From contig DATLFN010000096.1 of assembly GCA_035540975.1 (NCBI GenBank), positions 1 through 34,734 on the forward strand: a DNA stretch of 34,734 bases, in the 5' to 3' direction. Below the pieces are notes generated by a model. It did not search any database, was not told where the DNA came from, and saw nothing but the letters and a program-made list of their open reading frames with translations. The stretch is from Acidimicrobiales bacterium. GTDB lineage: Bacteria; Actinomycetota; Acidimicrobiia; Acidimicrobiales; GCA-2861595. The position numbers and the translations under genes were made by a program. Below, piece by piece: positions 17,968 to 32,175 of this stretch; the stretch's first letter is position 1, and each line of letters opens with the position of its first letter.

Positions 17968-17981
17968 CTGGGGAGCCGCGA

Positions 17982-18000: not shown

Positions 18001-18031
18001 GCGGCGGCGCCGGTGTAGATGCCCGAAGGGC

Positions 18032-18055
18032 CGCTTGTCATCAATTTGTCATCAC
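18032..18055 (+). repeat. Left arm-type integrase site (24-bp repeat)
   Basis: The sequence holds two TGTCATCA motifs in direct orientation, 12 bases apart start to start, and lies 66 bases inside attL. The identical 24-bp sequence sits 129 bases inside attR. Paired octamers flanking the core on both sides are expected for arm-binding sites of tyrosine integrases with an N-terminal DNA-binding domain. The integrase assignment is inferred. Confidence 0.75.
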
Positions 18056-18156
18056 CGTCACGCGGCCGCTGACCGTTGCTGGACCGCAGGGTCCGACGTC
18101 AGTTGGCGTCGTCGTCGGCGTGAATCGAGCAACGAGGACCCTCGGCAAAGCTCGAA

Positions 18157-18183
18157 GGCACCGTGCTCGGAGCGCACGGTGCC
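18157..18183. promoter_or_regulatory. Perfect 10-bp hairpin upstream of the DUF4209 gene
   Basis: GGCACCGTGC (18157-18166) and GCACGGTGCC (18174-18183) pair exactly around a seven-base loop. It lies 58 bases before the start of the DUF4209-like gene and within the non-coding left end (17968-18241), which otherwise holds only the arm site and the tRNA-proximal hairpin. It could be an attenuator, an insulating terminator against tRNA read-through, or a regulator site. Confidence 0.5.
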
Positions 18184-18241
18184 TGGCGACTTCGGGCGAA
18201 AATGACCCAGCACGTCGACACCGGGATGGGACCATGAGGTG

Positions 18242-19957
18242 ATGGCCGATGGAGGCGACGACGACCTGGTGTTGGAGCTCGCGAGGCGGGCCGATGCCGC
18301 GGCGACCGAGCATGAGTGGGAGCACCAGATCGTCGACGCCATCGTCGGCGGCCGACGTCACGACACCGATCGCCAGCGCCTCGCCGACGCCTTCCGGTTC
18401 CACGCCCGCGATAAGGACGGGGATGGTGAGCGATTCGGGCCGATGGTGACCTTTGAAGGTGGAGGGTCAGTGCCGGCCCCGCTCCCCAAGATGCCCGACC
18501 AAGCGTACGAGCTGTGGGAGCGGGTGCTGGGGCACGCACAGCATCCCCGCGTTCGGGCTCGGTTGCACGACCTCCTCTTCGAGCGCAGGTGGGGCGAAGT
18601 CGGAGTTCATCTCACCGGTGCAGCGGAGGCGTACATCGAGGACGGGATTTCAGGGAACCCTCAGTCGTTGCACTCGGTCGACGCACTTCGCCGCGCAGAT
18701 CACCTGGCTCGGCTCGGCCGCCGAAACGATCTCGTCGACCGTGTCACGGCTGAGGTCGTTCGGACTGCTGGAGCCAGCATCGATGACGCCGAGCCAAAGC
18801 CAGGGGTTGCCGTGCGCTTGATCAAGATTCTTGTCGATGGTCGTTGTGCCGATCCGGTGGTCGACGATCTTCTCCATCGAGCACGCTGCCGCTTTCCGGA
18901 CGCCTCGAACGTTGAGAGGACGATCGAGCTCCAGCGCCGACGCGCAGCCGACGAGGGCGCGCGGAAGGATCTCGACCGTCAGCTTGTCGAGCGTTGGCTC
19001 GACGAGGCCGAATGCGCCGACCCGCTCGTTGCAATAATGCATCGGGAGAAGGCGGCGAAGCTCGCTCGAGAGCGGGGACTCCCCGATCTCGTCGATCGTG
19101 CCGTTGTGGCCATGCAGACGGCCGGCCCGCCCGAGCTGGCGCGCATCCAAGTCGAGATTCCATCGACCATCACACCAGAGCAGGTTGAGGAGTACATCGG
19201 CTCGATGGTGGGCGGCACCTGGTGGGAGTCGGTGATGAGGTTGCTTGCGAATGGTCCGCCCACCGGGGATGTCGACCGCAATCGCAAGACGGCTGCCGAA
19301 CTCGGTCGGGAGCATCCGCTTCAGGCGCTGTTTCCCAAAGTGCGTCTCGGCGGAGACGGTTTGCCGCGTTACTCGGCCCAGTCCAACGACGACAAGCTCG
19401 ACGACCAGCTGACCGACATCGAAATCATGGGACTCCAGTTGTATGGCCCGCTGGTGGCTGAGGCGCTCCGAAGGGTCGGTGCGGCATTCGACCCAACAGT
19501 CGAGGACGTTGTCGAGGCGCTTGGCGCCGTCCGTTGCGACGGAGCGACCGCGGCGTTGATCGCCCGGGTGGTGTGCCGGTTCAATGCCGGCGACTACGAA
19601 GCCGCCGCGTACACCGGTCTTCCGCTGGTCGAACGGCTGTCCCGCACCCTCCTGCTTGCAGTCGATTCGCCGCTGTACCGCGTCCAGAGGGAGCGAGCAC
19701 CCGGAACGTATCCCGGGCTCGGCGCACTGCTGCCGCAGCTCGCCGAGCGCGGTCTCGATGAGTCGTGGTACCGGTTCCTGCGGACGCTCCTCTCAGCCCC
19801 GAACGGTTGGAACTTCCGAAACGAAGCCCTTCATGGGTTCGTCGACGACGTCGGCGCCACCGGTGCTGGTCTGGTCCTGATCGCTGTCCTGTACCTGACT
19901 TTCGTGCATCCGAAGCCCATCGACGGCGCGGATTCTGAGCCAGCGCGCAATGCTTGA
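18242..19957 (+). CDS. DUF4209-like protein with HEPN-type RNxxxHG motif (candidate defence effector)
   Basis: 571 residues. Most of the protein is helical and acidic, without membrane segments. Near the C-terminus it has NFRNEALHGFVDDVG, with R526, N527, H531 and G532. This matches the RNxxxHG signature of Pfam DUF4209, and R-x4-H is the catalytic pattern of HEPN ribonucleases. A hydrophobic helix (GLVLIAVLYLTFVH) follows the motif. HEPN proteins often act as abortive-infection or toxin RNases. Activity here is an inference from motif and location at the end of a mobile element. The ATG at 18242 is preferred, and a GTG at 18239 is in frame. The gene has more A/T-ending codons than chromosomal neighbours. 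It converges on the gene at 20006. Confidence 0.75.
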   Translation: MADGGDDDLVLELARRADAAATEHEWEHQIVDAIVGGRRHDTDRQRLADAFRFHARDKDGDGERFGPMVTFEGGGSVPAPLPKMPDQAYELWERVLGHAQHPRVRARLHDLLFERRWGEVGVHLTGAAEAYIEDGISGNPQSLHSVDALRRADHLARLGRRNDLVDRVTAEVVRTAGASIDDAEPKPGVAVRLIKILVDGRCADPVVDDLLHRARCRFPDASNVERTIELQRRRAADEGARKDLDRQLVERWLDEAECADPLVAIMHREKAAKLARERGLPDLVDRAVVAMQTAGPPELARIQVEIPSTITPEQVEEYIGSMVGGTWWESVMRLLANGPPTGDVDRNRKTAAELGREHPLQALFPKVRLGGDGLPRYSAQSNDDKLDDQLTDIEIMGLQLYGPLVAEALRRVGAAFDPTVEDVVEALGAVRCDGATAALIARVVCRFNAGDYEAAAYTGLPLVERLSRTLLLAVDSPLYRVQRERAPGTYPGLGALLPQLAERGLDESWYRFLRTLLSAPNGWNFRNEALHGFVDDVGATGAGLVLIAVLYLTFVHPKPIDGADSEPARNA

Positions 19958-20005
19958 ACCGGGAGCGGTGAGTCGCGACCGCCTTGGTGCACTCGTGGCT
20001 GCGTG

Positions 20006-20980
20006 CTACGTCTGGTCGGCCTCCTCTTCGCCATGATTGGCTGGCTCCCGCCCGCCATCGTCCAGGAGCGGTCGTCCAAGGTATCCGGCTGGATCAGGCA
20101 GGTTTCTGTCGAACCAGTGCGTTCGGTAGACGGCTGCACCGTCCGTCCACCAGGCAAGGTGCCAACCACCATCCTTGAAGATGAAGGCAGCTCGCTCCAT
20201 ACCGGGAAACACGCCACGTTCCCGCTGAAGGCCGGCGAACCCCGCAAGCGTGTTCGCCTGCTTGAGCCCGGCCAGCAGGTTCTCCTCAGCTTCGACGGCG
20301 TCGTACTCGGAAGGTATGAAACCGTAGAGCAAGGTGCCATCACCAAGTTCAAATCGCAGGACGAGCATGCGGTCACGATCAGGTTCCCTAGACCGACTCC
20401 ATGCGGCGCGCAGCCACCTCGCAAATGACTCCGCAGACTCCTTGCCGAGAGCCTCGAAGAAGGCACCCGTGAACTTGCAGGCGCCCCAGACAACCGGAAT
20501 ACTGAGGGTCCAAATCAATGGTGGGAGGTGTGACCACTTCTCCTCGACTTCGACTTCGAAGGGCGCCTCCTCAATCAACGCCTCGAGTGAATCGGTCGAG
20601 TAATTCCGACCGACAAGATTTAGCCTCACGTCAGTAACTGGCGGATGATCCGCTTCTGGCAGCAACTCGGTTTGGAGGAGTATGTCCGTCGGGTCGTCAC
20701 CTGCTGGAACGAGCTGTCGAAGGGAGCTGCCTCGAAGCTCCAACTCAAACTCACCATCGGGTGCTTCAACCACCTCAGCTGAATGCCATCGGCCGATGGG
20801 CGGTATGTAGTCGAGGTGCTCGATCGTCATCGGGAGAAACGCGCCTTCTGAGACCTGAGCAGCGGCTCCTTCGAGCGCTTCGCGAGTCACCTGGGTGATG
20901 TGGTCGGTGCCTGCGACGCGGACTTGGCGTGTAGACATCGCTCTGGCTACATAGTCGGAAGGAACCCACTCGTCACTCAT
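20006..20980 (-). CDS. Unrecognised protein with one central hydrophobic segment
   Basis: 324 residues and no family recognised. Residues 1-150 are polar, including LPMTIEHLDYIPPIGRW and a beta-rich stretch EFELELRGSSLRQLV. A single hydrophobic segment lies at about 152-172 (LPPLIWTLSIPVVWGACKF). A basic helix (FARWLRAAWSRSREPDRDR) follows, then a second domain with LRFELGDGTLLYGFIPSEYD and GGWHLAWWTDG. The C-terminus is acidic and probably disordered. It starts 9 bases after the integrase stop on the same strand without a clear ribosome binding site, so it is probably co-transcribed with int. Base composition is clearly lower in GC than the chromosome, which fits recent transfer. Confidence 0.75.
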   Translation of the reverse strand: MSDEWVPSDYVARAMSTRQVRVAGTDHITQVTREALEGAAAQVSEGAFLPMTIEHLDYIPPIGRWHSAEVVEAPDGEFELELRGSSLRQLVPAGDDPTDILLQTELLPEADHPPVTDVRLNLVGRNYSTDSLEALIEEAPFEVEVEEKWSHLPPLIWTLSIPVVWGACKFTGAFFEALGKESAESFARWLRAAWSRSREPDRDRMLVLRFELGDGTLLYGFIPSEYDAVEAEENLLAGLKQANTLAGFAGLQRERGVFPGMERAAFIFKDGGWHLAWWTDGAAVYRTHWFDRNLPDPAGYLGRPLLDDGGREPANHGEEEADQT

Positions 20981-20989
20981 AGATTCAGG

Positions 20990-22372
20990 CTATGCGCTGC
21001 CGGTATGTTTGTTGAATATGCGTTTGGCTACCCGCTCTGCAGCATCGCTCTGCATCGGGGGCGTGACGTGGGTGTAGATCTCCCGGGTCACAAAGGTGCT
21101 GGAGTGGTTGAGGCGGTCGCTGACGACCTTGATGTCGATGCCCTCGTGTAGCGCCAGGGTGGCCCAGGTGTGGCGGAGGCCGTGGAGGGTGAGCCTAGGT
21201 AGCCGGTCGCCGACGTGGAGCCGGTTGTACTGGTCCTGCTTGCGGAGGAACTCCCGGCTGAAGCGGTCGGGGTCGTAGGCGGAGCCGTCGGGCTTGCAGA
21301 AGACGTAGCCCTGGTCGACGTAGCCCGGCCCGACGAGGAGGCGCTCCTCGTTCTGCTGAGCCCGCCAGCGCCGGAGCATCGCCACCGTGTTGGAGTCGAG
21401 GGCGACCATGTGACCACGCTTGGTCTTCGGCAGCTCCTTCACGACGATCACGTGGTCGATCGATGTGACCTGGCGGGAGATGACCGCCGTCGCCCGGTCG
21501 AGATCGACGTCGGACCAGCGCAGTCCGAGGCACTCGCCGCGCCGGCAGCCCGTGGTGGCCACGAAGATCCACGGCGCCAGGTAACGGTTGTCGGCGACGA
21601 AAGAGAGGAAGGCGCCGAGCTGCTCGGCCGTCCAGGTCGTGCGCTGGCCGCGCATTGTCGACCCGACGGGCGGGGGAGTGGCGGCGTCGGCCACGTTGCG
21701 GGCGACACGGTTCCACCGCATGGCGTCCTTCAGGGCGGCGTGGAGGATCGAGTGGACGTACCGCACCGTCCTCGGGTTGAGCCCGGCCGGTGGCGGCACC
21801 CGCGTCGCCGGCGGGGTCTGGCGGCGGCGGTGGAGGGCGGCGACGGCGTGGCGGGTGATGCCGGCCTCGTTCGGGAAGGCCTCGGCGACGCCGGCGGCCA
21901 CCGCCGTCCAGGTGAGCCCGCTCGCCCGGAGGTCGTCGACCAGGTCGCCGACGTCGGCCGGGTGGACGTGCTTCGGCGGCGTCGCCGGGCGGCGGCCCGA
22001 CTCGAGGAGGGCCCGGTACATGGCCGTGAGGTCGAGGGGAGTGAGCTGCTGGAGAAGGATGCCGCCGATGTGCGGGACGACATGGAGGCGGACGTAGCGC
22101 CGATACGACCGGTAGGTGCTCTCCTCCAGCGTCGGGGGTGCCTGGGTTGGAAGCCACTCCTCTTCGAGGAACTCCCGGACCGTCACCCGCTCCGGTCGCA
22201 CCCACGTCCCCTTCTGGAGGGAGCTCATCGCCGCAATGCGGGCCGCCTCGGCCTCCCGCCGGGTGCGGAAGCCGCCCTTGCTGACCTGGCGGCGTTCGCC
22301 GCCGCCATCGGTGACGTACACGTAGTACGTCCAGGTGGTCCCTCGCTTGCGGACATTGCCGCGGCTACTCAT
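20990..22372 (-). CDS. int: Tyrosine recombinase (element integrase) with an internal insertion
   Basis: 460 residues from the ATG at 22372, preceded by GGAGG and overlapping the upstream regulator's stop by 8 bases. An N-terminal arm-binding domain (TWTYYVYVTDGGGERRQVSK) is followed by an SAM-like core-binding domain (VREFLEEEWLP ... HIGGILLQQLTPLDL) and the catalytic domain. Catalytic residues are R277 (TTGCRRGECLGLRW), K316 or K318 (PKTKRGHMVALD), H397 and R400 (LTLHGLRHTWATL), H423 (LNHSSTF) and the nucleophile Y433 (REIYTHV). Residues 130-196 interrupt the core-binding domain with an extra HTH-like segment. It should integrate and excise the element at the tRNA-Leu 3' end. Confidence 0.95.
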   Translation of the reverse strand: MSSRGNVRKRGTTWTYYVYVTDGGGERRQVSKGGFRTRREAEAARIAAMSSLQKGTWVRPERVTVREFLEEEWLPTQAPPTLEESTYRSYRRYVRLHVVPHIGGILLQQLTPLDLTAMYRALLESGRRPATPPKHVHPADVGDLVDDLRASGLTWTAVAAGVAEAFPNEAGITRHAVAALHRRRQTPPATRVPPPAGLNPRTVRYVHSILHAALKDAMRWNRVARNVADAATPPPVGSTMRGQRTTWTAEQLGAFLSFVADNRYLAPWIFVATTGCRRGECLGLRWSDVDLDRATAVISRQVTSIDHVIVVKELPKTKRGHMVALDSNTVAMLRRWRAQQNEERLLVGPGYVDQGYVFCKPDGSAYDPDRFSREFLRKQDQYNRLHVGDRLPRLTLHGLRHTWATLALHEGIDIKVVSDRLNHSSTFVTREIYTHVTPPMQSDAAERVAKRIFNKHTGSA

Positions 22373-23129
22373 CGTCGACCTCCTGCGCATCGGTTGCGGG
22401 CGCACGGCGGCGCCGCTTGGCTGCGGGGCGGCGCTTGGCCGCGAGGTCGTCCACGACCTGCGGGTCGAGGAAGGTACCGGGACGGTAGTTGTTGAAGGCG
22501 TTCAGGGCGTCGGCCAGACCGCGGAGGTTCTCAGCGAACGTGGCCACGTCGTCCCCCCGGCGGGGAGCACCCCGCATGCGCCGGGCGGCGAGCCCGTGGA
22601 AGGCGGCGGCGAGGACGTCCTCCGGCAGGAGGGGCGTCCGGAGCCGGGCGCCGGCGAGGGCGGCGAGGCGGTCGTCGTCGTCCAGGTTGTCTCCGGGCGG
22701 GGCTTCGACCGCCGCCCGCAGCACGTGCTCCCAGTTGGCGGCGCGCTCAGCGAGGACGGCGAAGTTGCCGCGATGGCCAAGGGCGAGCACCAGCAGGTAC
22801 TCCCACGGGAGCCCGCCCTCGGCGTCATCCGTCACGAGCTGGCCCTCGCCGTCATCGGGCGGCAGGAAGAAGAAGAGCACGGGCAGGTCGAACGTGCGGG
22901 CCAGCGCCACCAGTTCGTTGGCAGTGAACTGGCGGACCCGCTGACCGGCGACCGACCCCTCGGCCTGGGCAACCGTGGCCTGGCTCCACTTCGAGCCGGT
23001 GAACTTGCTGAGCCGCTCAGCGACCTCGGTCTGCGTCAGCCGCCGTAGCTCCCGGGCCCGAGCGAGGTTGTGTGCCACGACCTGGCTGGCGTTCCAGCTC
23101 CGGTCGCCTTGCGCTCGGGCTCTCGCCAC
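22365..23129 (-). CDS. XRE-family transcriptional regulator
   Basis: 254 residues. The N-terminal HTH_3 domain is [20 protein letters not shown] followed by AERLSKFTGSKWSQATVAQAE (shown as AERLSKFTGSK and WSQATVAQAE), then ANELVALARTFDLPVLFFFLPP, as in many XRE proteins with a LPVLFFF segment. The C-terminal half is helical and ends in a basic stretch (AAKRRPAAKRRRR). It is transcribed divergently from the excisionase-like gene across a 124-base region with an ATTACGC inverted repeat. It is upstream of and coupled to int, so it is the likely switch controlling integration, excision and mobilization. Confidence 0.85.
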   Translation of the reverse strand: MARARAQGDRSWNASQVVAHNLARARELRRLTQTEVAERLSKFTGSKWSQATVAQAEGSVAGQRVRQFTANELVALARTFDLPVLFFFLPPDDGEGQLVTDDAEGGLPWEYLLVLALGHRGNFAVLAERAANWEHVLRAAVEAPPGDNLDDDDRLAALAGARLRTPLLPEDVLAAAFHGLAARRMRGAPRRGDDVATFAENLRGLADALNAFNNYRPGTFLDPQVVDDLAAKRRPAAKRRRRAPATDAQEVDDE

Positions 23130-23213
23130 AGGGCCTCCGTCTCAGATGGGGGACAGGCGGCCGGCGGCCTGGTGTTGCGCCGTCCGCCCCGCCATTCCAT
23201 CATGTTATGAGAA

Positions 23214-23229
23214 ATTACGCCAGCGTAAT
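23214..23229. promoter_or_regulatory. ATTACGC inverted repeat in divergent control region
   Basis: ATTACGC and GCGTAAT pair around the dinucleotide CA, 16 bases in all, 24 bases before the excisionase-like start and 84 bases before the divergent XRE gene. An AT-rich TTATGA lies just upstream at 23205-23210. This is the only AT-rich palindrome in the control region and is a natural operator candidate for the XRE protein. ATTACGCCA recurs at 30863-30871 near attR. Confidence 0.6.
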
Positions 23230-23253
23230 CTTCCGAGCGAGCCGGAGGTGGCG

Positions 23254-23481
23254 ATGAGCTACGACGATCTTCCTCCCTTCCTGCGGGTCGAGCAGGCCAT
23301 GGAGCTGCTGCAGCTGGGCCGGTCGCAGCTCTACGCGCTTACCAACCGGTGGCTGGAGACGGGCGGCAAGGAGGGCATCCCGGTCGTGAAGTTCGGGCGG
23401 TGCCTGCGCATCCCCACGGCTGCCGTCCTGCGGATGGCGCTCATCCTGCCGGGCCCAGCGGGCGACACCGATGCCGCCTGA
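23254..23481 (+). CDS. Excisionase-like helix-turn-helix protein
   Basis: 75 residues. The ATG at 23254 has GGAGG seven bases upstream. The sequence FLRVEQAMELLQLGRSQLYAL is split here as FLRVEQAMELL and QLGRSQLYAL, followed by GIPVVKFGRCLRIPTAAVLRM. It has the winged MerR-like fold of HTH_17/excisionase proteins, with the wing VVKFGRCLRIP. Such proteins bind att arms or oriT-proximal DNA and act as recombination directionality factors or regulators. It overlaps the next gene by 11 bases and opens the mobilization operon. Confidence 0.82.
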   Translation: MSYDDLPPFLRVEQAMELLQLGRSQLYALTNRWLETGGKEGIPVVKFGRCLRIPTAAVLRMALILPGPAGDTDAA

Positions 23482-23806
23482 GGTCCTGATCGAGCACCAC
23501 TACCCGGCGGCACTCGCCTTCCTGCGCGCCCACGGGGGTCACTCGCTCGCGGTCCTGCACGACCTCCTGGCCCGGGCCGAGCGCCGTGACGGGGCGCTCG
23601 TCGCCCGGGCCAGCACCCGCGAGATCGCCGAGCGCCTGCAGTTCCTCTCCAAGGACACGGTGCACCGCTCGCTGCGCCAGCTGGCCCGCGCCGGCGTGAT
23701 CGAGGCGCTCGACCGGCGGGCCGGCTCGTCCTTCGCGCCGACGACCTACGTCGTCCACCTCGACGACTCCGGCATCACCGTCCTTCCCGACGGCCGATCC
23801 GCCTGA
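23471..23806 (+). CDS. Winged-helix DNA-binding protein
   Basis: 111 residues. Helices HYPAALAFLRAHGGHSLAVL and a typical winged-helix core ARASTREIAERLQFLSKDTV, then HRSLRQLARAGVIEAL, end with the wing SSFAPTTYVVHL. The recognition helix is KDTVHRSLRQL. It resembles small GntR/MarR-like or replication-type HTH proteins of actinobacterial mobile elements, but no precise family is claimed. It lies between the excisionase-like gene and the relaxase leader ORF, so it could regulate mobilization or act as a relaxosome accessory factor. Confidence 0.75.
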   Translation: MPPEVLIEHHYPAALAFLRAHGGHSLAVLHDLLARAERRDGALVARASTREIAERLQFLSKDTVHRSLRQLARAGVIEALDRRAGSSFAPTTYVVHLDDSGITVLPDGRSA

Positions 23807-23822
23807 CCACCGAGGGAGCCCC

Positions 23823-23900
23823 ATGACCCACCCGATCGCACCCCACCTGTCGCACTTCCAGACAGACGAGTGCACGGCCTCGTGCGGGACGCGGCCGTGA
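23823..23900 (+). CDS. 25-residue His/Cys leader ORF coupled to the relaxase
   Basis: The ORF has an ATG with GAGGGAG nine bases upstream. It starts MTHPIAPHLSHFQTDEC and ends ASCGTRP, with three histidines (residues 3, 8, 11) and two cysteines (17, 21). The stop overlaps the preferred relaxase start as GTGA. It sits 16 bases after the winged-helix gene. It may simply couple relaxase translation, or encode a small metal-binding or regulatory peptide. No homologue is recognised. Confidence 0.5.
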   Translation: MTHPIAPHLSHFQTDECTASCGTRP

Positions 23901-26900
23901 CCGCCCGCACCACCACGCTCAAGGGCGCCGACGCCGGCCGCTACTACGTGGAGGACCAGCTCGGCTACTACCTCGACCGGGGCGAGCCGCCCGGGCGGTG
24001 GATGGGCAGGGGAGCGGAGCACCTCGGACTTGCCGGCGAGGTGGACGAGGACGCCTTCCTCGACCTCATGGCCGGCATTGACCCCGGGCGCGGGGAGCTG
24101 CTCGGCACCCGCCATACCGAGCGCACCGTGCGCGGCTACGACGTGACCTGTTCGGCGCCCAAGTCGGTCTCGGTGCTGTGGGCCGTCGGCGACGACCCCG
24201 TGCGCGAGCAGGTCCTGGCCGGCCACGACGCGGCGGTGAACGGGGTCGTCGACTGGATCGACAGCCACGCCCACTGCCGCTACCGGGTGGCCGGCGACGT
24301 GCGGGTGTTCGACGCCGAGGGAGTCGTGGCGGCGCTGTTCCGCCAGCACACCAGCCGGGCGCTGGACCCGCAGCTCCACACCCACGCCGTCATCGTGAAC
24401 CGGGTCCTCGCGCCAGACGGTCGGTGGCTGGCCCTCGACGCCCGGACCATCAAGCGGGACCAGCGCAGCCTCAGCGCGCTCTACCACGCCGGGCTGCGGA
24501 CCGAGCTGACGCAGCGCCTCGGCGTGCGGTGGCGGGAGCCGGCCAACGGGATCGCCGAGATCGCCGGCGTGCCCGACGACGTGCTGGCCGAGTTCTCCCA
24601 GCGGTCGGAGGCGGTGGAGGCCCGCATCGAGGAGAAGCTGGAGCGCTTCACCGAAACCTTCGAGCGCGACCCGACGCCGCGGGAGCGATGGACGCTGGAG
24701 CGGGAGGCCGTGCTCGACAGCCGCCCGGCCAAGACCGAGTCCGACCCGGCGTCACTGGAGCGCGAGTGGCTGGGCCGGCTGGCCGGCCTCGACCTGACCC
24801 CTGAGAGGCTGGTCGCCGGCGCCGTGGAGGTCGAGGCCGGCATCCACCACCTCGACCGTGCCGCCGAGGCCGACCTGGTGGAGCGGGCCCTCGTCTCGCT
24901 GGCCGAGCGGCAGTCCACCTGGCGGGTCGCCGAGCTGGTCCGGGAGCTGGCGGCCGCCGTGCCGACGTCGCTGGCCGTGCCGGCCGCCGAGCTGGCCCCC
25001 TGGCTCGACCGCGTTGCCGACCAGGTCGTGGCTACCCGCATGGTCGACCTGTCCCGGCCCGTCGCCGACGGCGTCGAGCTGCGCATCGACGGCCGTCCGG
25101 TCACCGAGGGGGCAGTCGACCGGGTGCTGACACTTCCCGCGGTCCTGGCCGAGGAGGAGCGGGTCGTGACCCTGGCCGAACGGCGCACCGCCGCCGGCGG
25201 GGATGACCACGCCGTCACCGCCACGGAAGAGCTCGACGCTCCCCAGCAGGCGCTGGCCGAGGCGGTGGCGGGTGAGCGGGCGCTGGTTCTGGCCGTCGGG
25301 CCCGCCGGCACGGGGAAGACCTCGGCCCTGCGCCCGGCCGTCGACCAGCTGCGCCGGGAAGGGCGGGCCGTGTTCGGCGTGGCCCCGTCGGCCGCCGCCG
25401 CCGAGGTCCTCGGCTCGGATGCCGGGGTGGACGCCGACACCATCGACAAGCTCCTGGTGGAGCACACCCTCGACCGCCCGCCAGATCACCGTTACGCCCT
25501 GCCGGCCGGCGCGACGGTCATCGTCGACGAGGCCGCGATGGTGGCAACCCCGCGGCTGGCCGAGCTCGTCGACCTGGCCGACCGGCACGGCTGGCGCCTC
25601 GCCCTGGTCGGCGACCCGCTGCAGTTCTCCGCCGTCGGGCGCTCAGGGATGTTCGGCCACCTGGTCGATACCTTCGGCGCCATCGAGCTGGGCCGGGTCC
25701 ACCGGTTCCACCACGAGTGGGAGCGCGAGGCCAGCCTCCGGCTCCGTCGGGGGGACACCTCGGTCATCGACCTCTACGAGCAGCACGGTCGCCTGCACGG
25801 CGGTACCCCGCGGCAGATGCGGCGGGCGGTCGTCGAGCGGTGGTGGCGGGCCGTCGAGAACGGGGAGACGGCGTCGATGATGGCGCCGAGCAACGAAGCG
25901 GTGGTGGCCCTCAACCGGGCGGCGCAGTGGCGCCGGCTCGAGGCCGGCCAACTGGATCCCGAGGGCCCGTCGCTGGAGGTGGGGCAGTACCGCCTCCACC
26001 CCGGCGACCTGGTGGCCACCCGCCAGAACGACCGCAAGCTCGTGACCGATCGCCATCTCATGGTCAAGAACCGCGACCGCTGGACGGTGGAGGCGGTCCA
26101 CCGTGACGGCAGCCTGTTCGTGGCGGGCCGGACCGGCAGGGTGCGGTTGCCGGCGGCGTACGTGGCCAGCCAGGTGGAGCTGGCCTATGCCGAGACCAGC
26201 CACGCCAACCAGGGCCGCACCGTGGACCGTTCCTTCCTCTACCTCGACGGGCCCACCGGGGCGAGCGGCGTCTACGTCCCGCTCACCCGCGGCCGGGAGT
26301 CGAACGACGCCTACGTGGCGATCCAGGGGCTGCAGACCCCGGCCGACGTGTTGGCCGAGGCGCTCAGCCGGACCTGGGTCGACCGCCCGGCCGTCGCCGT
26401 GCGGGCCGAGCTGCGGGCGGAACCGGCCGGCGACGGCAGCGGCCAGCTCCTCGACGGCGCCGAGCTGCGGCGGCTCATGGAGCGGTCGGCAGAGATCGGG
26501 CGGAGCCTGGCCAGCGCCAGGTACGAGCCGGACGCCCAGCAGAAGAGACTCGACCGCCTGACCGCCGGACGGCAGGCCATGGCGCAGTCCATCGCCCAGC
26601 ACGAGGCCCAGCTCGACCAGGCGCGCCGCATCCTGGCCGAGCACGACCACCCGCTGGTGTGGCGCCTCCACCGGGCCGACGTCGAGAGCGCCCGCGCCGG
26701 GATCAAGTGGCTGCCGGGCGCTATCAAGGGGGACCGGGCCAAGCTCTCTGCAACCGATGCGCAGATTGCTCAGGTGGAGCGCAACCTTGAGCGCGCCGCC
26801 CGGCTCGCCGACCAGAAGCCGGAGCTCCTGGCCGAGCGCGCCATGATCAGCGTTCAGCTGGAAGGGGACCTCCGGGCCCGTGGCGTGTCGGCGGCCGCCG

Positions 26901-27172
26901 AGCCAGCCGTCGTCGAGACCCTCGGCCCCAAGCCGGCCGGTGGCGCCGCCGAGGCGCTGTGGTGCGACGCCGCCGCCCACGTCTCGCAGCATGAGGCGGC
27001 CTTCGGCCACTCCGGAGGCCGGTCGCGCGGGTGGCCGAACGTCGGGCTCGGGGATGACGCATACGCGTCAAGCCAGAAGGCGATGCGGGACGCCATCGAG
27101 AGGCTCGACCGGTCCCTCGGGCGTGGCCCAGAGATCGAGCCGCCCCATCGCTCGCTCGGGCTGTCGCTGTAG
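23897..27172 (+). CDS. MobF-type relaxase-helicase (TrwC/TraI family)
   Basis: 1091 residues from the GTG at 23897, which overlaps the leader ORF stop and gives the family start TARTTTLKGADAGRYYVED. A GTG at 23870 is in frame. The relaxase domain (about 1-290) has the N-terminal tyrosine pair Y16/Y17 and the three-histidine site H151, H161, H163 in HTSRALDPQLHTHAV. Helicase motifs follow: Walker A GPAGTGKTSAL (G468-T475), Walker B VIVDEAAM (D544, E545), GDPLQFSAVGRSGMF, and the C-terminal VPLTRGRESNDAYVAI. The tail (about 870-1091) is helical and charged. The protein nicks oriT and unwinds the transferred strand during conjugation. It is the defining mobilization gene of the element. Confidence 0.95.
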   Translation: MTARTTTLKGADAGRYYVEDQLGYYLDRGEPPGRWMGRGAEHLGLAGEVDEDAFLDLMAGIDPGRGELLGTRHTERTVRGYDVTCSAPKSVSVLWAVGDDPVREQVLAGHDAAVNGVVDWIDSHAHCRYRVAGDVRVFDAEGVVAALFRQHTSRALDPQLHTHAVIVNRVLAPDGRWLALDARTIKRDQRSLSALYHAGLRTELTQRLGVRWREPANGIAEIAGVPDDVLAEFSQRSEAVEARIEEKLERFTETFERDPTPRERWTLEREAVLDSRPAKTESDPASLEREWLGRLAGLDLTPERLVAGAVEVEAGIHHLDRAAEADLVERALVSLAERQSTWRVAELVRELAAAVPTSLAVPAAELAPWLDRVADQVVATRMVDLSRPVADGVELRIDGRPVTEGAVDRVLTLPAVLAEEERVVTLAERRTAAGGDDHAVTATEELDAPQQALAEAVAGERALVLAVGPAGTGKTSALRPAVDQLRREGRAVFGVAPSAAAAEVLGSDAGVDADTIDKLLVEHTLDRPPDHRYALPAGATVIVDEAAMVATPRLAELVDLADRHGWRLALVGDPLQFSAVGRSGMFGHLVDTFGAIELGRVHRFHHEWEREASLRLRRGDTSVIDLYEQHGRLHGGTPRQMRRAVVERWWRAVENGETASMMAPSNEAVVALNRAAQWRRLEAGQLDPEGPSLEVGQYRLHPGDLVATRQNDRKLVTDRHLMVKNRDRWTVEAVHRDGSLFVAGRTGRVRLPAAYVASQVELAYAETSHANQGRTVDRSFLYLDGPTGASGVYVPLTRGRESNDAYVAIQGLQTPADVLAEALSRTWVDRPAVAVRAELRAEPAGDGSGQLLDGAELRRLMERSAEIGRSLASARYEPDAQQKRLDRLTAGRQAMAQSIAQHEAQLDQARRILAEHDHPLVWRLHRADVESARAGIKWLPGAIKGDRAKLSATDAQIAQVERNLERAARLADQKPELLAERAMISVQLEGDLRARGVSAAAEPAVVETLGPKPAGGAAEALWCDAAAHVSQHEAAFGHSGGRSRGWPNVGLGDDAYASSQKAMRDAIERLDRSLGRGPEIEPPHRSLGLSL

Positions 27173-27387
27173 CCGACCGGCGCGGCACGAATGACTGTCG
27201 CACCCGGCTTGGATACTTGTAGTTGGCGGTGCCGCTTCTTCCGGACCGGCCCGGCTCGGGCGTCAGCCGAACATGCCGCCCCAGATTTCGGCGGCTCCAG
27301 ACGTTCGGTGGTCCGCAGACCGCAGACAGCGGCCCGTTAGGGTTCCGCTGGTGCCCATGGGTCAACCCCCGTCGATGGCGAGCCCCC

Positions 27388-27405
27388 TATGATCGAACAC
27401 GTGTT
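27388..27405 (+). promoter_or_regulatory. Candidate promoter and operator of the R-M unit
   Basis: TATGAT at 27388-27393 is a good -10 hexamer. A 10-base palindrome AACACGTGTT follows at 27396-27405, where transcription would begin, 15 bases before the methyltransferase ATG. No convincing -35 is visible. The rest of the 247-base gap after the relaxase (27173-27387) holds no gene. Only a short CCGCAGA direct repeat (27318-27331 region) stands out, and no oriT could be assigned. Confidence 0.4.
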
Positions 27406-27419
27406 TGTGGGTGGTCGCC

Positions 27420-29108
27420 ATGGTCAAGCCGCATCAACTGTCCCTGCTCGAGGTCCCGGTGACGCTCGCTGAGCTCACCCGTGATCCCGGCTCCGACTAC
27501 GGCGAGGTGTTCACTCGGCGCTGGATCGTCGATCTGATCCTCGACCTCGTCGGCTACACCGAGGACCAGGACCTAGGGGGCCAACGACTAGTCGAGCCCT
27601 CGTGTGGGACCGGCGCGTTCCTGGTCCCGGTCGTCGACCGCCTGATCGCCTCCTGTCGCCGGCAGGGTCGAAAGCTGGGCTCGATCGAGGGCGCCGTTCG
27701 GGCCTTCGACCTGCTCGACGCCAACGCGCAGCGGGCTCGGAAGGCGGCTGCACAGCGTCTGGAGGAGGCCGGGCTCGACCCGCCCTCGGCGGCGCGCATC
27801 TCGAGGAGCTGGGTGACGACAGGGGACTTCCTGCTCGCCCACCACGAGCCTGTCTCCGCCGACTACGTCGTCGGGAACCCGCCGTACATCCGCCTGGAGA
27901 ACGTCGAGCCGGCGGTAATGGCCGAGTACAGACGCCGGTGCCCGACCATGCGGGGGAGGAGCGACATCTACGTCGGCTTCATCGAGCTCGGCCTCGATCT
28001 CCTGGCGCGCGAAGGCAAGTTGGGCTTCATCTGTGCCGACCGCTGGATGCGCAACCAGTACGGCGCCGACCTGCGGGCGCTGGTCGCCGGATCGTTCGCG
28101 GTCGATGCCGTGCTCACCATGCATGACGTCGAGGCCTTCGAGGATGAGGTATCGGCCTATCCGGCGATCGTCGTGCTCCGCAACGGCCCCCAGGCGAGCG
28201 CTGTCGTCGCCGACGCATCGAGCCGGTTCGGCGAGCCCGAGGCGGCGAAGCTGGCCCAGTGGGCCCGCCGGCCGCGGCGGCCGGTGCTGTCTACGCCCGG
28301 CCTCCAGGCCGCTCGCCTCGGTGAGTGGTTCAACGGGGGCGACCTCTGGCCGACGGGCAGCCCCGCTCAGCTTGCCTTGGTCGCCCAGCTGGAGGCGAGG
28401 TTTCCCCCACTTGAGGACATCAGGACGGGAACAAGGGTCGGTATCGGCGTGGCCACCGGTTGCGACGACGTCTACATCACCCACGACCGAGACCTTGTGG
28501 AGAGCGACCGGCTCCTGCCCCTCTTGCAGGCAAGCGACATAACGAACGGCACGCCGACTTGGGGTGGTGGCTACCTGGTGAACCCCTGGGAGGGCGACGG
28601 CTTGGTCGACCTGGGGCGGTACCCACGGCTGCGCCGGTACCTCACCAGGAACGCTGCCCGGCTCCGCGAGCGACACACGGCACGCAAGAACCTCAGCCAG
28701 TGGTACCGAACGATCGACCGCGTGCACCCCGACCTTCAGGGGAGGCCGAAGCTCGTGCTACCGGACATCAAGGCGGCGTCGCACCCGGTCCTCGACGATG
28801 GCCGCTACTACCCACACCACAACCTGTACTTCGTGACCAGCGACGAGTGGGATCTTGAGGTGCTCGGAGGCCTCCTGCTGTCGGACGTCGCCAATCTCTT
28901 CGTGGGGGCGTACTGCGTCAAGATGCGAGGCGGGTGCTACCGGTTCCAGGCCCAGTACCTGCGGCGGATCCGTGTGCCGCAGCCCCAAGCGGTATCCGCG
29001 CGTGACCGGCGAGCGCTGAGATCCGCCTTCGTCTCGAGAGACGTTGAGGCTGCGACGGCAACTGCGTTGAGGCTGTACGGGATCCAGGATCTCCTCCAGG
29101 TCCCTTGA
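27420..29108 (+). CDS. N6-adenine DNA methyltransferase (gamma-type, Eco57I/TaqI-like N-terminus)
   Basis: 562 residues from the ATG at 27420. GTG 27411 and TTG 27405 are in frame and would suit a near-leaderless transcript. The SAM-binding motif I is LVEPSCGTGAFLVP (residues 58-70). The catalytic motif IV is NPPY at 153-156 (DYVVGNPPYIRLENV), typical of N6-adenine methylation with motif order X-I-IV. The C-terminal half (GTRVGIGVATGCDDVYI ... LVLPDIKAASHPVL ... YCVKMRGGCYRFQAQYL) is the target-recognition part found in type II methyltransferases of this class. It is followed 16 bases later by a PD-(D/E)xK nuclease gene, so the pair is read as a type II R-M system carried by the element. Confidence 0.9.
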   Translation: MVKPHQLSLLEVPVTLAELTRDPGSDYGEVFTRRWIVDLILDLVGYTEDQDLGGQRLVEPSCGTGAFLVPVVDRLIASCRRQGRKLGSIEGAVRAFDLLDANAQRARKAAAQRLEEAGLDPPSAARISRSWVTTGDFLLAHHEPVSADYVVGNPPYIRLENVEPAVMAEYRRRCPTMRGRSDIYVGFIELGLDLLAREGKLGFICADRWMRNQYGADLRALVAGSFAVDAVLTMHDVEAFEDEVSAYPAIVVLRNGPQASAVVADASSRFGEPEAAKLAQWARRPRRPVLSTPGLQAARLGEWFNGGDLWPTGSPAQLALVAQLEARFPPLEDIRTGTRVGIGVATGCDDVYITHDRDLVESDRLLPLLQASDITNGTPTWGGGYLVNPWEGDGLVDLGRYPRLRRYLTRNAARLRERHTARKNLSQWYRTIDRVHPDLQGRPKLVLPDIKAASHPVLDDGRYYPHHNLYFVTSDEWDLEVLGGLLLSDVANLFVGAYCVKMRGGCYRFQAQYLRRIRVPQPQAVSARDRRALRSAFVSRDVEAATATALRLYGIQDLLQVP

Positions 29109-29124
29109 CTCCACTCGAGGCCGG

Positions 29125-30105
29125 TTGACGCCGCCGATCGCACCCCGCACACCGAAGGCCGTCCTCCTCACAAATCCTTACTGCGCGCCGCTCCGCTCCA
29201 TGTACGACCGGCTGAGCCGTGGAAGAGCGACGAGTTGGAACCAGATCGAGGATGCGTTTCTGGCGGCGATGTCATCGTTCGACGACGGACTCCCGCCAGC
29301 CTTCAGCGGGACCGATCAGGACAAGACACGCCAGAGCAAGGAGCTGAGCGCCGCCATCCAGAATGGCAAGGGGGACTGGTTCAACAACCTCCTTGCCGAC
29401 CTCTTGGAGACGTGCTCGGGCATCGAGAGGCTGTACGTACGTCGCCGCGTGCCCGGCCTCATCATTCCCGAGCACAACCTGGACGGCGTGTACCCAGGCG
29501 ACGAGACCCGGGAGATCGAGTTCCTCCTGGAAGCGAAGATGATGGGCACTCCGAAGCATGCCAACAGTCCGGGCGAGAAGTCTGCGGGCCGCGCCGGCTC
29601 CATGGATACGGGCAAGCGGGTCAAGGAGCTGGCCTTCAAGTCGATCGACCTGAAGGGAGAGGCGGCTCGCCGGCTCGCGATGGCCGGCATGGCGCCGACG
29701 AGCGGGGGCGCCGGCGGCGGAGACCTATCGACGTGGCTCCATGGGAGTCGGCCCCGCATCTACTTCTTCATGGCGGTGCGTGTGCTGAACGACACTGATC
29801 TGGCGGCGGTCGTCCGATGGGCGGAGACCGCTGCGCAAGTGGTCGATGCAGTCGGGCTCTACTGCTACGAGCCCGTGACGGGATCGTTCACGACGTACCG
29901 TCGTCGTGGCGGCGTTCCCACCGCCTACGAACTCGAGCGCGTCCTCTACCGCGCGTGCATCGAACTCCAGGGTCTGAAAGCTGCGCCACCGCCGCCCATC
30001 CCCCATGACGTCGAGCCGAGCGCTGCAGCAAAGGCCGACGTTCTCACCGACGAAGCGAAGAAGACCGAGCCGCCCGCCGAGCGGCAGCCAGGCGTCGAAA
30101 ACTAG
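29125..30105 (+). CDS. Probable type II restriction endonuclease, PD-(D/E)xK fold
   Basis: 326 residues from a TTG at 29125. The sequence VPGLIIPEHNLDGVYPGD then REIEFLLEAKMMG gives D120 ... E136-A-K138, the PD-(D/E)xK catalytic pattern with a 15-residue spacing. The N-terminal half is helical (ELSAAIQNGKGDWFNNLLADL precedes it, written in part as GDWFNNLLADLLETCSG). The C-terminus is acidic and low-complexity (KTEPPAERQPGVEN). It lies directly after an N6-adenine methyltransferase, the usual arrangement of R-M pairs. The specificity and exact restriction family are not recognised. It could instead be another nuclease, but the context makes restriction most likely. Confidence 0.75.
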   Translation: MTPPIAPRTPKAVLLTNPYCAPLRSMYDRLSRGRATSWNQIEDAFLAAMSSFDDGLPPAFSGTDQDKTRQSKELSAAIQNGKGDWFNNLLADLLETCSGIERLYVRRRVPGLIIPEHNLDGVYPGDETREIEFLLEAKMMGTPKHANSPGEKSAGRAGSMDTGKRVKELAFKSIDLKGEAARRLAMAGMAPTSGGAGGGDLSTWLHGSRPRIYFFMAVRVLNDTDLAAVVRWAETAAQVVDAVGLYCYEPVTGSFTTYRRRGGVPTAYELERVLYRACIELQGLKAAPPPPIPHDVEPSAAAKADVLTDEAKKTEPPAERQPGVEN

Positions 30106-30113
30106 GAGGTTCG

Positions 30114-30326
30114 ATGGCGGTGTTCGTCCAGTACCTCGTACCGGTTCTGGCCGAGGTCGATCTTGCGTCAGGCCGGGTGACCCGGGTTCACGTCGAGGAC
30201 GAGGCGGTGGGCGACGCCGATGAGGTCCTTGTCATCGACGAGCCGGACGTCTCAGCTGCAGATCGCGAACGTGCCATTGCAGTGGCGGCCGAGCAACCAT
30301 GGCCAGCATGGGAGTTCGGGGGGTAG
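30114..30326 (+). CDS. Small acidic protein, copy on the element
   Basis: 70 residues, acidic, with a GGAGG site before the ATG. It ends in PWPAWEFGG. No family is recognised. A related but 5'-truncated copy lies just outside attR (30902-31033; DAEQVFVVD versus DADEVLVID, and FWPAWEF versus PWPAWEF). In both places it precedes a vapB gene, so it probably belongs to a conserved vapBC-associated cassette. The gene follows the endonuclease stop by 8 bases. Confidence 0.65.
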   Translation: MAVFVQYLVPVLAEVDLASGRVTRVHVEDEAVGDADEVLVIDEPDVSAADRERAIAVAAEQPWPAWEFGG

Positions 30327-30383
30327 AGGTCGAGCCCGGACTCCCGGACAGGACGCCGCTCGCACGAGCGAGAGGGGAGATCG

Positions 30384-30584
30384 ATGAGAACCACTGTGGA
30401 CATCGACGACGAAGCGTTGGCTGCCGCCGCGGCCGTACTCGGTACCTCGACGAAGGTCGACACCGTGAACCGGGCCCTGGCCGAGGTCGCGGCGAGGCCA
30501 CGTCGGGTCACCGCCGTTGAGCGGCTGCTCGCGGCCACAGACGATCTTGGGGATGCCGAGACCATGCAGCGAGCGTGGCGCTGA
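30384..30584 (+). CDS. vapB: VapB-family antitoxin, element copy
   Basis: 66 residues with AGAGGGGAG upstream. The N-terminal ribbon-helix-helix is MRTTVDIDDEALAAAAAVLG, then TSTKVDTVNRALAEVAARPR, the standard VapB pattern (type II VapB of PIN toxins). The C-terminal toxin-wrapping segment is DDLGDAETMQRAW. It is about 80 percent identical to the antitoxin at 31292. The following toxin gene is destroyed, so this antitoxin has no partner on the element and might neutralize the neighbouring VapC. Confidence 0.85.
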   Translation: MRTTVDIDDEALAAAAAVLGTSTKVDTVNRALAEVAARPRRVTAVERLLAATDDLGDAETMQRAWR

Positions 30585-30699
30585 GCGCCGTCGGCCGGTT
30601 CCGCGGCGGGTCGACCGGTCAGGTTCAGCGTGTCGGCGACGGGCCTCTCGGCTCGCTGGAATCACCCCTGCTGGGACCGGCCAGGGCGGCGCCGTGTGA
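30575..30699 (+). pseudogene. vapC remnant with the PIN core deleted
   Basis: It starts at the GTG overlapping vapB as in the intact pair (GTGGCGCTGAG versus ATGGCGCTAGG at 31486). From about 30645 it matches only the last 65 bases of the intact vapC: TCGGCTCGCTGG, CTGCTGGGACCGG and GGCGGCGCCGT are shared. About 300 bases encoding the catalytic acidic residues are missing, and the frame is not preserved. Similarity continues beyond the stop (TGATGTCG-CGACAC). Confidence 0.8.
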
Positions 30700-30705
30700 T
30701 GTCGA

Positions 30706-30729
30706 CGACACACCCGGCCGGGTGTGTCG
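30706..30729. terminator. Perfect 24-bp palindrome, probable bidirectional terminator
   Basis: CGACACACCCGG is followed immediately by its exact reverse complement CCGGGTGTGTCG. As RNA it would form a 10-bp stem with a GGCC loop. It lies after the vapC remnant and abuts the right arm site at 30728. The homologous stretch after the intact vapC is not palindromic. Confidence 0.6.
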
Positions 30730-30751
30730 CTTGTCATCAATTTGTCATCAC
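30728..30751 (+). repeat. Right arm-type integrase site (24-bp repeat)
   Basis: It is identical over 24 bases to 18032-18055, in the same orientation, with two TGTCATCA motifs. It is 129 bases inside attR. In a circular form, one arm site would lie on each side of the joined core, as in a P-core-P' attachment site. Confidence 0.75.
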
Positions 30752-30785
30752 TTCTCGGAAAAACTGCCTGGAAACGGCGCTACCT

Positions 30786-30871
30786 GTAATTACAAGCCGT
30801 CACGGATGACCCCTAAAAAAGTGGCTCTGACCAGCACTTATGCGAATTACATGCTATGTGACATTACGCCA
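30786..30871. promoter_or_regulatory. AT-rich segment inside attR with repeated ATTAC motifs
   Basis: GTAATTAC (30786-30793), AATTAC (30845-30850) and ATTACGCCA (30863-30871) occur in an AT-rich stretch that is unusual for this window. The last matches nine bases of the operator-like repeat at 23214. Excisionase or host-factor binding next to attR would fit, by inference. Confidence 0.4.
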
Positions 30872-30880
30872 CGGGCATGA

Positions 30881-30902
30881 GTTCAAGTCCCCCCTCCGAC
30901 AC
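30881..30902 (+). repeat. attR core (22-bp direct repeat)
   Basis: It is an exact copy of the tRNA-Leu 3' end at 17944-17965. It is not preceded by a tRNA body, so it marks the right junction of the element. The sequence immediately after it is the truncated reading frame of the small acidic protein. Confidence 0.93.
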
Positions 30903-31033
30903 ACGAGGCCGTCGGCGATGCCGAGCAGGTCTTCGTTGTCGACGGGACCGATCTCGCGGACGCTGAACAGGAGGCGGCCATCTCCGTCGCCGAAGACTCG
31001 TTCTGGCCGGCCTGGGAGTTCGGCTCGGGGTAG
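30902..31033 (+). pseudogene. 5'-truncated copy of the small acidic protein, cut at attR
   Basis: The frame from the last base of the att core reads HEAVGDAEQVFVVDG, then ISVAEDSFWPAWEFGSG and a TAG at 31031-31033. It aligns with the C-terminal 44 residues of the 70-residue protein at 30114. The first 26 or so codons are missing and replaced by the att core. No start codon or upstream signals remain. Confidence 0.8.
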
Positions 31034-31048
31034 CAGCTGGCTCGAGGC

Positions 31049-31231
31049 ATGGAACCCGCGAGCCGCGTCTACCGGTTCGTTCTCACTTTCGAGGTCGAAC
31101 CCGGCCACGATGCCTACGCCGACCCCGAGTGGGCGGCGGACGCAGCTTGGGGCGCTCTCACCAACCTGTACGGACTGCGTTCGATCTACAGCGGCATCGA
31201 GGAGCTCGACCCGAGCGAAGGTTTCTCCTGA
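31049..31231 (+). CDS. Small hypothetical protein between the truncated gene and vapBC
   Basis: 60 residues, starting MEPASRVYRFVLTFEVEPGH and ending EELDPSEGFS. It has a beta-alpha look (YRFVLTFEV, then AADAAWGALTNLYGL) and strong acidity. No family is recognised. The ribosome binding site is weak (CTCGAGGC). No counterpart exists in the matching position of the element copy of the cassette (30327-30383). Confidence 0.5.
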   Translation: MEPASRVYRFVLTFEVEPGHDAYADPEWAADAAWGALTNLYGLRSIYSGIEELDPSEGFS

Positions 31232-31247
31232 CCGCCGCGGCCGCCCC

Positions 31248-31279
31248 CTGATATCCTACGAGAGCCGTCGTGATATCAG
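31248..31279. promoter_or_regulatory. Inverted repeat upstream of vapBC, probable VapB operator
   Basis: CTGATATC (31248-31255) and GATATCAG (31272-31279) form an eight-base inverted repeat with a 16-base spacer, ending 12 bases before the vapB GTG. VapBC complexes usually autorepress by binding such repeats through the antitoxin ribbon-helix-helix. The element copy of vapB has no equivalent repeat. Confidence 0.6.
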
Positions 31280-31291
31280 ACGGAGGAGTCG

Positions 31292-31495
31292 GTGGCACGA
31301 ACCTTGGTGGACATCAACGAAGAGGCGCTGGCCGCTGCGGCGGCGGAGCTCGGGACCACGACGAAGGTGGACACCGTCAACCGGGCGCTCGCCGAGATCG
31401 CGGCCAGGCCCCGACGGCTCGCCGCGCTGGAGCGGCTCCGCACCACCGCTGACGACCTGGGCGACGCGGAGATCATGCGGGGAGCATGGCGCTAG
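31292..31495 (+). CDS. vapB: VapB-family antitoxin, intact pair
   Basis: 67 residues from a GTG with GGAGG upstream. The ribbon-helix-helix is RTLVDINEEALAAAAAELG, followed by TKVDTVNRALAEIAARPR and the C-terminal DDLGDAEIMRGAWR. It overlaps vapC by 10 bases, the normal arrangement for a co-translated TA pair. It should bind and inhibit the PIN RNase and repress its own promoter at the inverted repeat just upstream. Confidence 0.88.
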   Translation: MARTLVDINEEALAAAAAELGTTTKVDTVNRALAEIAARPRRLAALERLRTTADDLGDAEIMRGAWR

Positions 31496-31917
31496 GCCGC
31501 TACCTGGCGGACAAGTCGGCATTCGAGCAGCAGCGCCACAGCGAGGCCGCTGCCGGGTTGCTCTCGGCCCTCGCCGCCGACGGCGCACTCTTCATGACGG
31601 AGATCGTCGCCCTGGAGCTGCTGTACTCCGCCCGCAGCTCGGACGACTACGACGTACGCCGCGAGGACCTGTTGAGCCTTCCCTGGTTCCACCTGACCCA
31701 GGCGGTGGCAGCACGTGCGCTCACGGTCCAGCACGAGCTGGCCGGGCGGGGACAGCACCGCCGACCGATCCCCGATCTCCTTGTCGCCGCCACCGCCCTC
31801 GAACACGACGCGATGCTGCTCCACTACGACCGGGACTTCGATCTCATCGCTGAGGTCACCGGTCTTTCGGCTCGCTGGATCATCCCTGCTGGGACCGGTC
31901 ACGGCGGCGCCGTCTGA
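31486..31917 (+). CDS. vapC: VapC-family toxin, PIN-domain ribonuclease
   Basis: 143 residues. The PIN acidic site is visible: D9 in YLADKSAF, E44 in MTEIVALELLYSAR, D97 in IPDLLVAATAL, and D115/D117 in LLHYDRDFD. VapC toxins cleave tRNA or rRNA and are held inactive by VapB. This is the only complete toxin of three vapC-related sequences within 1.6 kb: a deleted copy lies at 30575-30699 and a 5' fragment at 32129-32175. The C-terminus (GLSARWIIPAGTGHGGAV) is the part still matched by the remnant. Confidence 0.9.
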   Translation: MALGRYLADKSAFEQQRHSEAAAGLLSALAADGALFMTEIVALELLYSARSSDDYDVRREDLLSLPWFHLTQAVAARALTVQHELAGRGQHRRPIPDLLVAATALEHDAMLLHYDRDFDLIAEVTGLSARWIIPAGTGHGGAV

Positions 31918-32068
31918 TGTCGGCGACACGCCCCGCCTCCACGAGCACCCGCCGGGAGAATAAACGGCCAAGAGGGGGCCGGGGTGAGATTGAGATGCCG
32001 TCGAAGCGGTAGTGCCGGGTACCTCCGCCGGGAGCGCCTCCAGCCTACGCTCAGCCCGGCTTCGAGGT

Positions 32069-32092
32069 ATGAGTTGAAGCCCCCCCTCCAAC
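32069..32092 (+). repeat. Third, degenerate att-like sequence
   Basis: It matches attR with its left flank (30877-30900) at 21 of 24 bases: ATGAGTTGAAGC against ATGAGTTCAAGT, then the same CCCCCCTCC run. Eleven bases later CCCTGGTCAGGGG (32103-32115) repeats a 13-base sequence found 20 bases after attL (17985-17997). It lies in the 405-base gene-free stretch 31918-32322, which otherwise holds the vapC fragment. Confidence 0.7.
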
Positions 32093-32128
32093 GTTAAGAA
32101 CACCCTGGTCAGGGGTCCCTTATTCGCT

Positions 32129-32175
32129 CTGGCGGACAAGTCGGCTTTCCGAGCAGCACCGCCACAGCGAGGCCG
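32129..32175 (+). pseudogene. Fragment of a third vapC (5' part)
   Basis: CTGGCGGACAAGTCGGC is identical to 31504-31520 in the intact vapC. The following GAGCAGCACCGCCACAGCG differs by one base from its counterpart, and one inserted C breaks the frame. Only codons for about residues 7-22 survive, and no start or PIN core is present. Confidence 0.75.

Follow-up and report, generated by a model that had tools for sequence, protein, structure and literature searches.

Stacking and decay of integrative mobilizable elements at a tRNA-Leu gene as the probable origin of an att core joined to a truncated gene in an Acidimicrobiales bacterium

The stretch of DNA analyzed here (the window; 34,734 nucleotides) was one whole contig, C96, of an Acidimicrobiales draft genome in 171 contigs. 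A tRNA-Leu (GAG) gene, the integration target, was located on the forward strand at positions 17881 to 17965 (the ARAGORN call spanned 17881-17967). The 3' end of this gene formed a 22-bp attL core (17944-17965), and an attR core that matched it at 22 of 22 positions was found on the same strand at 30881-30902. These two exact copies were the only ones in the window when up to three mismatches were allowed, and shuffled sequences contained none. The DNA from the first core through the second (17944-30902), which we call element A, was inserted in the 3' end of the tRNA-Leu gene. Its left (P') arm, at 17966-18055, carried CCCTGGTCAGGGG (17985-17997) and TTGTCATCAATTTGTCATCAC; it had an arm repeat in common with the right end of A, and its first bases were similar in genomes G209, G079, and G089. 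The right (P) arm, at 30719-30880, had homologues in G135 (two P arms) and in contig C62 of G009 (one). The CCCTGGTCAGGGG motif of the left arm was also observed at 32103-32115, and other left arms displayed an inverted-repeat form, CTGACCAGCACGAAAGTGCTGGTCAG. It is possible that this motif is a site for the integrase or an accessory factor.

Element A carried a tyrosine integrase gene on the reverse strand (20990-22405; Pfam Phage_integrase, 7.7e-20, with SAM_3 and Arm-DNA-bind_4), and the features described below from the relaxase gene to the vapC scrap at 32129-32175 were on the forward strand. A MobF (TrwC) relaxase was encoded at 23870-27172 (Pfam TrwC, 3.7e-81; NCBIfam MobF, 241.3 bits against a cut-off of 100). 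It was followed by an Eco57I-type DNA methyltransferase gene (27405-29108; Pfam Eco57I, 6.5e-18; PADLOC MTase_II, 2.1e-198) and a probable type II restriction enzyme gene (29125-30105), which matched PADLOC REase_II at 1.1e-9 and nothing in Pfam or NCBIfam. In G555, too, the restriction gene was located behind the methyltransferase gene. Next came an intact gene for a 70-residue protein, P70 (30114-30326), with homologues in G209, G191, G555, and G641. A lone vapB antitoxin gene (30384-30584; Pfam VapB_antitoxin, 1.6e-9) preceded a vapC remnant that had lost the middle of the gene (30585-30718); positions 30661-30719 were 88% identical to the end of a second vapC at 31879-31937, and the rest of the remnant was assigned by eye. 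Contig C62 of G009 likewise had vapB without vapC ahead of a right arm, and a lone antitoxin such as that of A could protect against the VapC of a neighbor. At the other end of A, the large protein adjoining attL (18239-19957) resembled the candidate defense family PDC-S39 (PADLOC, 1.3e-19).

Judged by its sequence, element A is probably an integrative mobilizable element (IME). It had an integrase together with site-specific att repeats (the 22-bp attL and attR at tRNA-Leu) and a relaxase of its own (MobF/TrwC), and no mating-pore or transfer-pore genes were found among the larger proteins scanned. Among 397 genomes from the order, 27 (counting that of the window) encoded integrases alike at an E value of 1e-60 or better. 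Comparable integrase-relaxase pairs were also observed in G209, G089, and G099. A 2017 IME review (PMC5704250) places a MobF relaxase in no known canonical IME, so element A, with its MobF relaxase and tyrosine integrase, may merit interest of its own.

Immediately to the right of attR was a truncated copy of P70, referred to here as the stump (30903-31033, forward strand). It ran from codon 29 to a TAG at 31031-31033 and had no start codon. In a protein search, the stump was 56% identical to P70 over residues 29 to 69, an identity that marks the two copies as old relatives and led us to reject a recent tandem duplication of P70. Over 40 codons, the two copies differed by 10, 7, and 26 substitutions at codon positions 1, 2, and 3, respectively. 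This excess at third positions (p = 2.4e-4) shows that the stump gene was under selection and working until recently. Because P70 stood behind a methyltransferase and a restriction gene in both A and G555, the stump plausibly came out of such an operon. No relatives of P70 were detected in plasmids or phages by protein search, in IMG/VR, or in a first scan of genome contigs; weak matches in G334 (in an 847-residue frame) and G476 (in a 362-residue frame) were not taken as homologues.

Further to the right, a 60-residue protein, P60, was encoded at 31049-31231, with relatives in 4 other genomes of the 397 in the order. P60 matched nothing in IMG/VR and one locus in genome contigs; its match in L054, an Acidimicrobiales MAG, had the same coordinates as that in G336, so the two are evidently one contig. 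An inverted repeat, TGATATC...TGATATCA, at 31249-31278 preceded a second vapBC pair and is possibly the vapB operator. Similar repeats were present in G079 and G135, and none was found ahead of the lone vapB of A. In the pair itself, vapB (31292-31495; Pfam VapB, 1.3e-4, 22.2 bits, slightly under the curated cut-off of 23.4) was 98.5% identical in amino acid sequence to its counterpart in G079, and the full-length vapC toxin gene (31486-31917; Pfam PIN, 2.8e-12; NCBIfam VapC below its cut-off) was 90% identical. A degenerate att core that matched at 17 of 22 positions followed at 32073-32094, ahead of the P'-like CCCTGGTCAGGGG noted above. Sixty simulations gave 0.07 cores scoring at least 17/22 per window. 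This degenerate core was probably where the right end of the element to the right of attR met the left end of a third remnant, and a vapC scrap at 32129-32175, 89% identical to the vapC of G079, was the last trace of a third copy. Proteins encoded to the right of 32191 had no relatives at an E value of 1e-8 among the compared loci, the window's own loci aside, and no synteny partner.

The two sides of attR were alike in gene order, with P70, vapB, and vapC or its remnant on each and the 60-residue protein gene only on the right. The DNA to the right of attR (stump, P60 gene, vapBC, degenerate core, and vapC scrap) is best read from this arrangement as belonging to an older, related element, B, whose right end it forms. 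The TTGTCATC repeats in the right arms of A, G079, and G135 were absent from the right arm of B. As in a CIME, the integrase and transfer genes of B were gone; the identified features of 30903-32072 were the stump, the 60-residue protein gene, and vapBC. A CIME also keeps both flanking att sites. In the case of B, the left core was perfect but common with A, and the right core retained 17 of 22 positions, so we call B a relic and not a CIME.

The junction itself was sharp. Homology to P70 began at 30903, the base after the attR core, which is equivalent to 30199 in codon 29 of the intact gene. With the two copies in register, they agreed at 5 of 30 bases to the left of 30902/30903 and at 24 of 30 to the right. 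A first-pass annotation of this DNA had described an attR core joined to a truncated gene, and that description held up, with a perfect 22-bp core and stump homology from the very next base. The same annotation correctly had the reading frame resuming downstream of attR, but placed the resumption at "codon 27 or so" instead of codon 29. An exact 26-base junction pattern was present in no IMG/VR contig, and among 124 loci a 28-base pattern was found in three, each of which was the window itself.

We compared this arrangement with related loci. The core was present with at most one mismatch in 253 of 327 genomes of the order, and 38 of the 327, the genome of the window included, had at least two copies (0 in the reversed control). 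The draft genome G024 had eight such copies on several contigs. In G056, G119, G176, and partly G287, tRNA-like sequence was located ahead of the repeated core; some repeated cores are tRNA duplications, and not all mark stacked elements. Stacking was seen directly at four loci, in G135, G089, L054, and contig C62 of G009. In G135, two right arms followed vapBC, the first with an altered core and the second with a perfect one, and between them was another toxin-antitoxin-like stretch (recognized by eye). The outer flank was 72% identical over 162 positions to the right flank of the tRNA gene in G162, which is presumably an empty site. The inner core of G135 (locus L042, about 6600-6580, minus strand) read GTTCAAGTCC and then left the consensus. 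No other exact copy of this 17-base core variant was found in the 6 genomes searched, and the variant could show on which side of the core the crossover took place. In G089 and L054 (by eye in the latter), a second core was followed by a P' arm, and contig C62 of G009 carried, after its lone vapB, a right arm with core that was 83% identical and then a P' arm. An apparent scar beside the tRNA gene of G009 was set aside as evidence because it may be a tRNA duplication. G209 had a single element and no stack.

In G079, the tRNA core was followed by a P' arm, a vapBC pair that was 91.6% identical to that of B at the DNA level, and a partial right arm with no second core; tblastn with the proteins of A found neither its integrase nor its relaxase in 19.9 kb. 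We read this locus as a separate collapse with a different breakpoint. In G191, an intact P70 gene was located about 200 nt to the right of a core, and no relative of the integrase of A was found in the 19.9 kb around that core. A P70 match within 1,300 nt to the right of a core was found at 2 of 76 distinct cores (the window and G191), as was vapB with vapC (the window and G079), with a weak partial VapC match at one more, L099; these cores had at most three mismatches and at least 100 nt to their right, they included cores of other tRNA-Leu genes, and the loci were partly picked for relatedness, so the counts are no survey. Among the 77 distinct core contexts listed, only two (G089 and G009) had the exact P' motif behind a core with no tRNA ahead of it. 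Matches of P535 and P542 in tblastn were left out of three of the locus comparisons, and matches of P535 were treated as noise in another.

The two cores, the homology of both right ends, the abrupt junction, and the retained vapBC could all be read directly from the locus. We consider that stacking and decay of integrative mobilizable elements, with an illegitimate deletion, probably explains the junction, and we put the probability of this reading at about 0.78. We infer that B once had its own att core, integrase, relaxase, and restriction genes, followed by P70, the 60-residue protein gene, vapBC, a right arm, and a terminal att core that would survive as 32073-32094. A deletion, which we suppose occurred by illegitimate end-joining, would have taken out everything from the end of the tRNA gene with its att core through codon 28 of the P70 gene of B. 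Because the tRNA must stay intact, a deletion that entered the core would have been lost. Element A would then have integrated at the same tRNA end, and such an integration after the deletion would place a full core directly ahead of the stump. This order of events is suggested by the right-hand core: after A had restored the tRNA gene, nothing would have held that core against decay, yet it was perfect. The looser proposal of the first-pass annotation, that related tandem copies had undergone a deletion, fits this history.

Some observations count against decay as a full account. The left endpoint of the deletion fell within about one base of the core edge; the need to spare the tRNA bounds how far a deletion could reach, and the exact hit at that bound stays outside this explanation. 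In addition, P70 stood to the right of a core in G191 with no integrase like that of A in the surrounding 19.9 kb, so P70 can be located there for other reasons. The mere two occurrences of the P' motif among the 77 core contexts, and the lack of a synteny partner to the right of 32191, also weigh against it. No intact element B was present among the genomes and loci compared, which leaves the missing part of B and its own P70 bases at the breakpoint unseen. The relics here and in G079 had different breakpoints, and in both a TGATATC...GATATCA-like repeat preceded the retained vapB and vapC. This suggests, from two cases that are no proof, that the toxin-antitoxin pair stayed in place as the other parts disappeared, and vapBC may have been retained since its loss kills the cell. 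A more ambitious version, in which array bodies are deleted, vapBC is held by addiction, and ends are actively set at the core edge, so that such loci act as traps that collect toxin-antitoxin pairs, is a long shot.

The exactness of the left endpoint also bears on whether the deletion end arose from cutting or stalling at the core's 3' edge, through arm-side nicking by an integrase or a barrier to replication forks. A junction exact to about one base is what such an event might leave, but this is a single case, the collapse in G079 retained at least about 45 nt of the P' arm, and the tRNA scar in G009, although also near the core, may be a tRNA duplication. We regard this mechanism as improbable. 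An assembly misjoin at the core is a slightly poorer candidate. The junction was located at a repeated sequence in a 171-contig draft, but the repeat was merely 22 bp, both sides were related right ends, and a second core with a new left arm was also found in G089, a genome for which one contig is listed.

The first-pass annotation had favored a strand exchange joining the att core to a look-alike within the gene; here, the integrase of A or B would have recombined the core with GTTCACGTC in the P70 gene of B and deleted the DNA between them. We consider this very unlikely. The resemblance was real, as GTTCACGTC at 30186-30194 matched the att start GTTCAAGTC at 8 of 9 positions, but its place was not the equivalent one. 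Counting back from the junction puts the core at 30177-30198 in the intact P70 gene, where it begins 22 nt ahead of the equivalent breakpoint, and GTTCACGTC begins 13 nt ahead of it, a displacement of 9 nt (three codons). This shift is divisible by three, so the core and the look-alike fall in one frame by coincidence, and the likeness looks better than it is. A crossover at GTTCA.GTC would put the gene's GAGGACGAGG-like bases after it. Instead, the whole core, CCCCCTCCGACAC included, reached the junction, with 9 more core bases than such an exchange permits before homology begins, and no hybrid core with look-alike bases on one side, as off-target integrase recombination would leave, was present. 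The full core strongly disfavors an exchange. The inner core of G135, which diverges after GTTCAAGTCC, does make a crossover near the T-loop end plausible. The codon 25 region of the P70 gene of B itself was deleted, and the look-alike was read from the copy in A.

The look-alike itself is, as judged from the homologues, a coding coincidence. GTTCACGTC comprised the codons of a V-x-[VLI] stretch, and the homologous place in five other homologues (two copies in G209 and one each in G191, G555, and G641) read VHL, VVV, VAV, VYV, and VHI. Att-like sequence, for which the first-pass annotation had proposed inspecting codons 20 to 30 of orthologues, was missing from this region in the five genes; their best matches to GTTCAAGTC over codons 20 to 32 reached only 5 to 7 of 9 positions, and the sole 7/9 match was located elsewhere, near codon 31 of G191. 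When the P70 protein was synonymously recoded 20,000 times, 1.7% of the recodings had a match of at least 8/9 near that place, a figure given before allowing for choice. All five homologues started with ATG or GTG and had no core at the start. A normal start unrelated to the core had been named as evidence against the exchange; these are homologues of the whole P70 gene and not of the truncated locus, so the comparison only leans that way.

The idea that the stump is a host or fusion gene whose new 5' end is the att core can be dismissed because, although the core reads in frame with the stump, a TGA (30878-30880) lay directly ahead, the 50-codon frame had no ATG, GTG, or TTG start, and no open reading frame of at least 20 residues began with one of these codons in the stump frame, which ruled out an expressed fusion gene.

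Stacking and decay at one target gene have precedents. The 2017 IME review describes a three-step history of integration, decay, and new integration at the restored site, and the accretion of IMEs with CIMEs or decayed elements, for which it cites the ICESt1 family (PMC5704250). As in that accretion model, the window displayed site-specific stacking at one target gene and a decayed, related neighbor that lacked genes for integration and transfer. Unlike the model, the B relic had a left end cut back to the core and a degenerate right core, so it is probably not cis-mobilizable alone. In Dehalococcoides tandem islands downstream of ssrA (PMC3146451), copies of an RNA-gene 3' end also mark successive islands, and many islands lack an integration module, like the relic described here, but those islands use a serine recombinase and a tmRNA target, whereas the window had a tyrosine integrase and tRNA-Leu. 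The tandem AICEs of Actinobacteria (PMC3218068) likewise integrate at tRNA 3' ends and occur in tandem pairs, with one case of three att repeats at one tRNA, and that study reports no AICE in Acidimicrobidae. Unlike AICEs, element A encoded a MobF relaxase, and the proteins scanned included no FtsK-type transfer protein. Since the three-step history and tandem AICEs have already been described, the window adds an example of a known phenomenon.

The locus illustrates that a layered record can accumulate when elements are inserted and lost again and again at a single tRNA gene. It also indicates that an att look-alike inside a gene needs a register check before it is read as off-target recombination. 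Finally, this element family would be suited to studying whether survival within such arrays is decided by toxin-antitoxin pairs.
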